Source: Frigoribacterium sp. CFBP 13712
GTDB taxonomy: Bacteria > Actinomycetota > Actinomycetes > Actinomycetales > Microbacteriaceae
NCBI RefSeq assembly: GCF_014842255.1
Contig: NZ_JACYVH010000002.1
Location: 358,519-422,518, forward strand
Direction: 5' to 3'
DNA length: 64,000 nt
The stretch's first letter is position 1. Each line of letters begins with the position of its first letter. The notes beneath the pieces are model-generated. The model had not been told where the DNA came from. It did no database searches and was given only the letters and a program-made list of their open reading frames with translations. Below are positions 2,770 to 3,300 of the stretch, one piece after another. A program made the position numbers and the translations under genes.

Positions 2770-2828
2770 ACCACGCGGTGCCCGGCGGAGCCGGGACGGA
2801 CGAGGAGGCGCGGTATCGTTGATCGTCC

Positions 2829-2904
2829 GCCCCCGTAGCTCAGCGGATAGAGCAGGAGCCTTCTAATCTCTTGGTCGCAGGTTCGATTCCTGCCGGGGGC
2901 ACCA
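2829..2904 (+). tRNA. tRNA-Arg (anticodon TCT)
   Basis: The acceptor arms GCCCCCG and CGGGGGC pair over 7 bp. The D-arm is GCTC/GAGC, the T-loop is TTCGATTC, and CCA is encoded. The anticodon loop CTTCTAA gives TCT, which reads AGA/AGG. The anticodon stem is imperfect: GGAGC faces TCTCT, with a C-T mismatch next to the loop and one G-T pair. A likely -10 element TATCGT lies at 2813-2818. The 3' half is duplicated just downstream, so the 3' half now in place may have been supplied by an integrated element. Confidence 0.9.
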
Positions 2905-2974
2905 CGACGCAGATCTCGCGGTGCTTCTCATCTCTTGGTCGCAGGTTCGATTCCTGCCGGGGGCACCACGACGC
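2860..2974 (+). repeat. Tandem duplication of the tRNA-Arg 3' half (att-like scar)
   Basis: The 51-bp segment 2860-2910 runs from the anticodon loop through CCA and 6 nt beyond. It is repeated at 2924-2974 with one substitution. The copies are separated by only 13 bp (2911-2923). The second copy has no acceptor 5' strand or D-arm, so it is not a tRNA gene. A repeat spanning anticodon loop to 3' end is the usual attachment core of tyrosine-recombinase elements. No integrase or cargo remains. Confidence 0.85.
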
Positions 2975-2997: not shown

Positions 2998-3300
2998 TCA
3001 GGCGAAGCGGAAGCAGTCGGTGGCGTCCGCGCGACTCCAGAACTCGCCGATCTCGACGAACCGTCGCTGACGGGCGATGAACCGCTTGGCCCGGTACTTC
3101 TCGCCCTGCGGGTCGGCGAACCGCTCGACGTACCCGAGCACCTCCCCGCCCGGGCGGGTGACCCGTGCGAGATCGTCACGGACCTGCACGAGTCGCAGAC
3201 CCCCTCGGGTCTCGTCGAGCTGGAGTCGGGGTTCGTCGTGCGTGTGCGTGCTCGCCGAGGCGAGCGGGGTGTGCGGGGCGGGGAAGGCGGTGGTGGTCAT
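2998..3300 (-). CDS. Conserved-looking hypothetical protein, 100 aa
   Basis: I do not recognise a family. The N-terminal 30 residues are Thr/Ala/His-rich and probably disordered. The remainder (RLVQVRDDLARVTRPGGEVL, then a segment rich in Arg/Lys/Phe) looks like a small folded alpha/beta protein with a basic C-terminal half ending in CFRFA. No signal peptide or membrane segment is visible. The ATG is preceded by AGGAGC at good spacing, which supports this start. It lies between tRNA-Arg and the aldo/keto reductase and is transcribed towards the tRNA, so it could be cargo left at the tRNA-linked integration site, but its base composition is like its neighbours. Confidence 0.6.
   Translation of the reverse strand: MTTTAFPAPHTPLASASTHTHDEPRLQLDETRGGLRLVQVRDDLARVTRPGGEVLGYVERFADPQGEKYRAKRFIARQRRFVEIGEFWSRADATDCFRFA

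Follow-up and report, generated by a model that had tools for sequence, protein, structure and literature searches.

Tandem copies of the tRNA-Arg(TCT) 3′ half behind the tRNA gene in Frigoribacterium and other Microbacteriaceae

We analysed a stretch of 64,000 nt (the window) from Frigoribacterium sp. CFBP 13712 (genome G000), in which an intact tRNA-Arg(TCT) gene (2829–2904, plus strand; ARAGORN, and Rfam tRNA at 66.8 bits) precedes a copy of its own 3′ half. The first copy of the repeat (2860–2910, plus strand) comprises tRNA positions 32–76 and 6 nt of trailer; the second (2924–2974, plus strand) is a partial tRNA-Arg devoid of a 5′ half, and between them lies the spacer AGATCTCGCGGTG (2911–2923, plus strand), which includes the conserved leader CTCGCGGTG (2915–2923). 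A preliminary description had reported a 51-nt repeat of the tRNA 3′ half with copies 13 bp apart, and this is confirmed: 50 of the 51 nt are identical (98%), with a start-to-start distance of 64 bp. Because such a match recurs only 64 bp away, and the same arrangement is found in relatives, the repeat is not due to chance. The mismatch that had been noted in the anticodon stem, right where the repeat begins, is also real, since C31 (2859), the base immediately 5′ of the repeat, stands unpaired opposite U39 (2867) and the repeat starts at C32. Beyond what had been described, the two copies differ solely at tRNA position 37, which is A in the tRNA (2865) and C in the downstream copy (2929), this copy is preceded by CTCGCGGTG, and relatives carry multi-copy arrays, of which the window holds one unit.

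The neighbours of the tRNA are of housekeeping type: the upstream one encodes a mannosyltransferase-like protein, whereas downstream lie genes for an aldo/keto reductase and then for SSB and an ABC-F-like ATPase. Between the mannosyltransferase-like gene and the tRNA lies a perfect 16-bp inverted repeat (2734–2769), perhaps the terminator of the upstream gene. The string GCGGTATCGT (2810–2819, plus strand) is the probable −10 region of the tRNA promoter, a similar string being seen by eye at the same place in many relatives; a consensus scan gave no sigma-70-type site. Directly behind the array, the minus strand has a frame of 100 aa (2998–3300) with no Pfam match, and a frame resembling it occurs in G004 (L032:3135–3431), beyond another frame. 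The other tRNAs of the window (25.7–26.0 kb) showed no similar repeat.

In the Microbacteriaceae, a family living in soil and on plants, copies were found behind the tRNA-Arg in 35 of 398 genomes, belonging to 10 of 85 genera, using a leader-plus-core pattern with three mismatches allowed. Each array unit consists of a short variable spacer, the leader CTCGCGG with 3–4 variable bases, and the tRNA 3′ half, which starts at the anticodon loop and has C in place of A37. The number of units per array ranges from 0 to 7, and they follow each other in steps of 57–103 bp across the family loci. Within Frigoribacterium, all 16 genomes contain the tRNA, which in 12 of them is followed by a whole or partial unit, a count that includes G004, whose unit is cut by an insert; G003, G014 and G015 have no unit, and G008, read only up to the leader, has this leader behind the tRNA. 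G013 contains three further copies at 64-bp steps. An exact match to leader plus core was present in 13 contigs from a collection of 84,980 species, with titles naming Frigoribacterium, Salinibacterium, Microterricola, Microcella, Leifsonia and Mycetocola. Outside the Microbacteriaceae, a pattern fitting only tRNAs that resemble this one yielded no C37 copy in 248 genomes of the order. The duplication had been explained as the footprint left after loss of an integrated element, which was not borne out, because arrays recur in 35 of the 398 genomes with a shared leader and C37; the array is lineage-wide and not the footprint of one recent loss. We found no account of such arrays in the literature searched, most subscription journals being outside its scope, and one report names tRNA operons among periodic repeats (PMC6344855).

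The C37 core pattern without the leader retrieved 31 of the 398 family genomes, all inside the set of 35, and there was no further C37 core in the family genomes. C37 was present in all 57 copies outside the tRNA (29 loci; 27 matched genomes outside the genus), as counted with a pattern that accepted A or C and three mismatches, while the leader survey took C37 copies only; the one additional stretch found alongside them, with A37, was a prophage junction in G281. The 3′ half of the copies tracks the local tRNA (for example, CACAGG/CCTGT in G150), and units are identical or nearly so in G013, G150 and G312, with an alternating pattern in G241. Some units of G002, G005, G006, G009 and G011 (L004, L009, L010, L011 and L012) have the T-loop swapped for a longer piece, indicating from these five Frigoribacterium species that an intact T-arm is dispensable. 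A coding role for the repeats was rejected, as the length of a unit is in many cases not divisible by three.

We compared the leader among arrays using one genome for each of the 10 genera. Identity over CTCGCGG(TGC), positions −11 to −1, was 0.701, against 0.281 (sd 0.024, maximum 0.370) for 2000 random 11-mers, the likeness of the five bases before TTCTC being partly ascertained because they, but not CTCGCG, were part of the search pattern behind the 35 genomes. Over positions −11 to −5 it was 0.663, with a 7-mer null of 0.282 (sd 0.031, maximum 0.429), and both values dropped, to 0.55 and 0.50, when the frame-shifted unit of G294 was included. In the same test, the spacer before the leader reached only 0.369, and tails and far-upstream pieces remained near the null (0.27–0.31). 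Departures from the leader occur in G342, G077, G194 and several Frigoribacterium species. A tract shorter than 200 bp that spread horizontally could mimic this conservation, although selection is the simpler inference because tails and far-upstream pieces differ between genera; judging from these alignments, the leader is probably under selection.

The arrays could also have originated from a chance tandem duplication reaching from the anticodon loop to the trailer, which then spread and shrank by recombination without having any function. The homogeneous and alternating units described above would fit such a history, as would array-free sister species, a decayed unit in G100 and the lack of a structure signal in the unit, whose predicted fold is not unusual compared with shuffled sequences (z −1.29). 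We nevertheless consider it unlikely, because the leader is alike between genera whereas tails and far-upstream sequences are not, and because none of the 57 copies has returned to A37.

For the gain and loss of units, we aligned the flank past the last unit with the flank right past the bare tRNA of an array-free relative. A clear match appeared in five of 15 pairs (G013/G015, G012/G003, G010/G003, G006/G014 and G373/G088), involving four array-free genomes, with a score of 84 for G013/G015 against a null maximum of 21.5. The other ten pairs gave no clear match: G190/G138 was barely above its null and nine were below it, including the window's own pair, G000/G014. Where the match holds, it fits the loss or gain of whole units, and decay also occurs, as evidenced by the unit in G100. 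In an EttA tree of 59 genomes, chosen and not random (30 with and 30 without array, one of the latter dropped for its wrong length), array presence required 18 changes, at least 14 of them forced by well-supported branches, with G100 scored as array-free despite its decayed unit and G008 unscored. Since 106 of 500 shuffles gave values as low, array presence is not clearly clustered on this tree.

The anticodon-stem mismatch had been taken as a sign that an element donated the 3′ half, with a paired GGAGC/GCTCC stem predicted for the ancestral tRNA. Positions 31 and 39 are unpaired in 82 of 84 distinct tRNA-Arg(TCT) genes with flank in the family DNA fetched, the other two having A31-U39. With a stricter removal of doubles, they are unpaired in 76 of 77 genes, a count that includes one prophage-borne gene among the 76 and leaves out one phage gene fetched later. 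Likewise, C·U stands at 31:39 in each of the 17 tRNA-Arg genes that have a complete anticodon arm on the IMG/VR contigs fetched. The mismatch was therefore not donated, and the prediction of a paired ancestral stem fails; judged by its distribution, C31·U39 is ancestral.

The tRNA-Arg(TCT) gene is a live integrase target. In G139 it is followed by an island of 14.8 kb that encodes a tyrosine integrase (PF00589) and is delimited by a second copy of CTTCTAATCTCTTGG..., and G191 retains a piece of a related integrase near the tRNA (L246, 58 aligned residues). Two IMG/VR loci, L160 and L173, have an alike junction starting at the same anticodon-loop base, that of L173 being beside a PF00589 frame, and the repeats of G139, L160 and L173 all start at C32, as does the repeat of the window. 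In G281, a prophage of about 17 kb lies between the tRNA and the array (L148, G281:C1:1006500–1026400); the host tRNA-Arg(TCT), which it split at a 15-bp core, was not rebuilt, and the prophage brings along a tRNA-Arg(TCT) of its own (L148, 1343–1418). Four of its frames were scanned, yielding a CI-type repressor domain, a weak portal match and two frames without a Pfam match; no integrase was recognised by eye among its listed frames. This organization fits the tRNA-dependent lysogeny described for mycobacteriophages (PMC10865867).

These integrations bear on whether the arrays themselves could be attachment-site scars, that is, whether one integrase family, with CTCGCGG(TGC)TTCTC as the left arm of its attP, entered the anticodon loop and was later lost, every loss leaving behind a 3′ half marked by C37 and the arm of the element. 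The repeat has the same boundary as the real integrations in G139, L160 and L173, leader and C37 would both be to the left of a crossover, and the host-like 3′ half is what an attR would show. Moreover, the arrays broken by contig ends (G187, G285 and G294), or the two others read only in part, could hide such an element. Conversely, the elements in G139, L160, L173 and G281 all retain A37, and none has the array leader or C37.

No element with leader or C37 was found in the array loci with readable sequence throughout, and three exact leader and C37 patterns had no match in IMG/VR; a 15-mer retrieved 110 IMG/VR stretches, and neither leader nor right arm was present in any of the 80 loci fetched. 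A blastn search with the unit gave 601 phage and 168 plasmid records; many of the best 20 phage matches, and none of the best 20 plasmid matches, were labelled as tRNA-Arg. Two candidates opened from these best matches were rejected for lacking the leader with C37: Rhodococcus phage Mbo4, with an attP at a tRNA-Arg, and phage Min1, with a tRNA-Arg stretch. On this reading, every loss must also have left merely some 12–58 bp, the copies in the window are only 13 bp apart, and none of the nine neighbouring genes scanned encodes an integrase; a search of the window with the G139 integrase gave a best E of 0.11. The use of this tRNA by tyrosine integrases elsewhere, with the same boundary, gives the preliminary explanation partial support, but with the mismatch not donated and no leader-bearing element found, we regard it as rather doubtful for the arrays.

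It is very improbable that the units act as decoy attachment sites, diverting integrating elements from the tRNA gene. A unit in G004 is indeed interrupted by a 2-kb insert (L032:200–2200) with two genes, one for a ParA-like ATPase (AAA_31) and the other for a protein of 200 aa that matches HEPN weakly, at a score below the Pfam cut-off; the two are possibly a defence pair. However, no second core copy for this insert was detected within the 70 kb searched. In addition, the G281 prophage entered the tRNA despite the two units behind it, if the array is older, and by the usual rule C37 in the presumed overlap should hinder phages with the core TTCTAATC.

We examined whether the unit has features of an RNA. 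Together with the tRNA, it folds somewhat better than shuffled sequences (z −2.09; 4 of 200 shuffles as good), and in the predicted minimum fold the 5′ strand of the tRNA pairs with the 3′ strand of the unit. Pairing of the leader with the acceptor end was rejected, as the five bases before TTCTC showed no covariation (3.74 of 5 pairs, against 3.73 after shuffling). Hairpins with stems of at least 9 bp lie behind seven of 34 arrays, five of them from Frigoribacterium, as compared with none in 34 control windows and none in 34 spacers, which are much shorter; the remaining 27 arrays, including that of the window, have no strong hairpin behind them. The strong hairpins are a hint that arrays can lie inside a transcript. 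No antisense target stood out in eight genomes, in which only array units and scattered, unannotated sites with three mismatches were found.

The anatomy of the arrays is firm and their dynamics are likely; their origin and function we infer. We give about half of our belief to the window copy being a one-unit example of an old, dispensable tandem array in the trailer of this tRNA in the Microbacteriaceae. The first duplication may date back to an integrase junction formed long ago in the anticodon loop; such an att-site origin is conceivable because integrases do use this tRNA elsewhere and the repeats there begin at the same base. Unit number would then shift by recombination or slippage between the repeats of about 45 bp, while gene conversion with the tRNA would keep the 3′ halves alike, and the array would be transcribed as part of the tRNA trailer. 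Leader and C37 appear to be kept by selection, because other flanks no longer align between these genera, and the array would most likely serve as an RNA or processing element in the trailer, useful but dispensable. More specifically, and only as a tentative possibility, the C37/CUCGCGG-marked tandem halves in the tRNA-Arg(UCU) trailer may constitute a family-specific, selectively kept repeat RNA acting as tRNA-half mimics. Such mimics might vie with the 3′ half of the tRNA itself for pairing with the 5′ half while the tRNA folds, as in the predicted minimum fold of tRNA and unit, or, alternatively, might titrate an enzyme that processes or cleaves tRNAs, the number of units serving as a dial.

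Tandem repeats containing a tRNA 3′ end, and situated behind the tRNA, occur in Escherichia coli as the tyrT repeats, with rtT RNA; these are longer than the units described here, include a shorter piece of a different tRNA and belong to another phylum. No match to the Rfam RtT family was found in the window, in which only tRNAs reached gathering scores. The attL and attR repeats of islands and prophages at tRNA genes likewise repeat a 3′ tRNA fragment, from the anticodon loop, past an intact tRNA; unlike them, the arrays have no element seen between copies, reach up to seven copies and share leader and C37 across genera. In the actinobacterial case Fean6303, three direct repeats lie past a tRNA-Arg and the element is still present (PMC3218068).

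Partial copies of a tRNA next to tRNA genes usually receive the label of island junctions. For the arrays described here, this label fails most of the tests made, and similarity in a short leader and one base extends over ten genera. If the arrays are functional, they would represent a novel type of tRNA trailer RNA, next to a tRNA for rare arginine codons; if they are not, they would offer a clean setting in which to follow how tandem arrays expand, contract and keep step with a tRNA gene.
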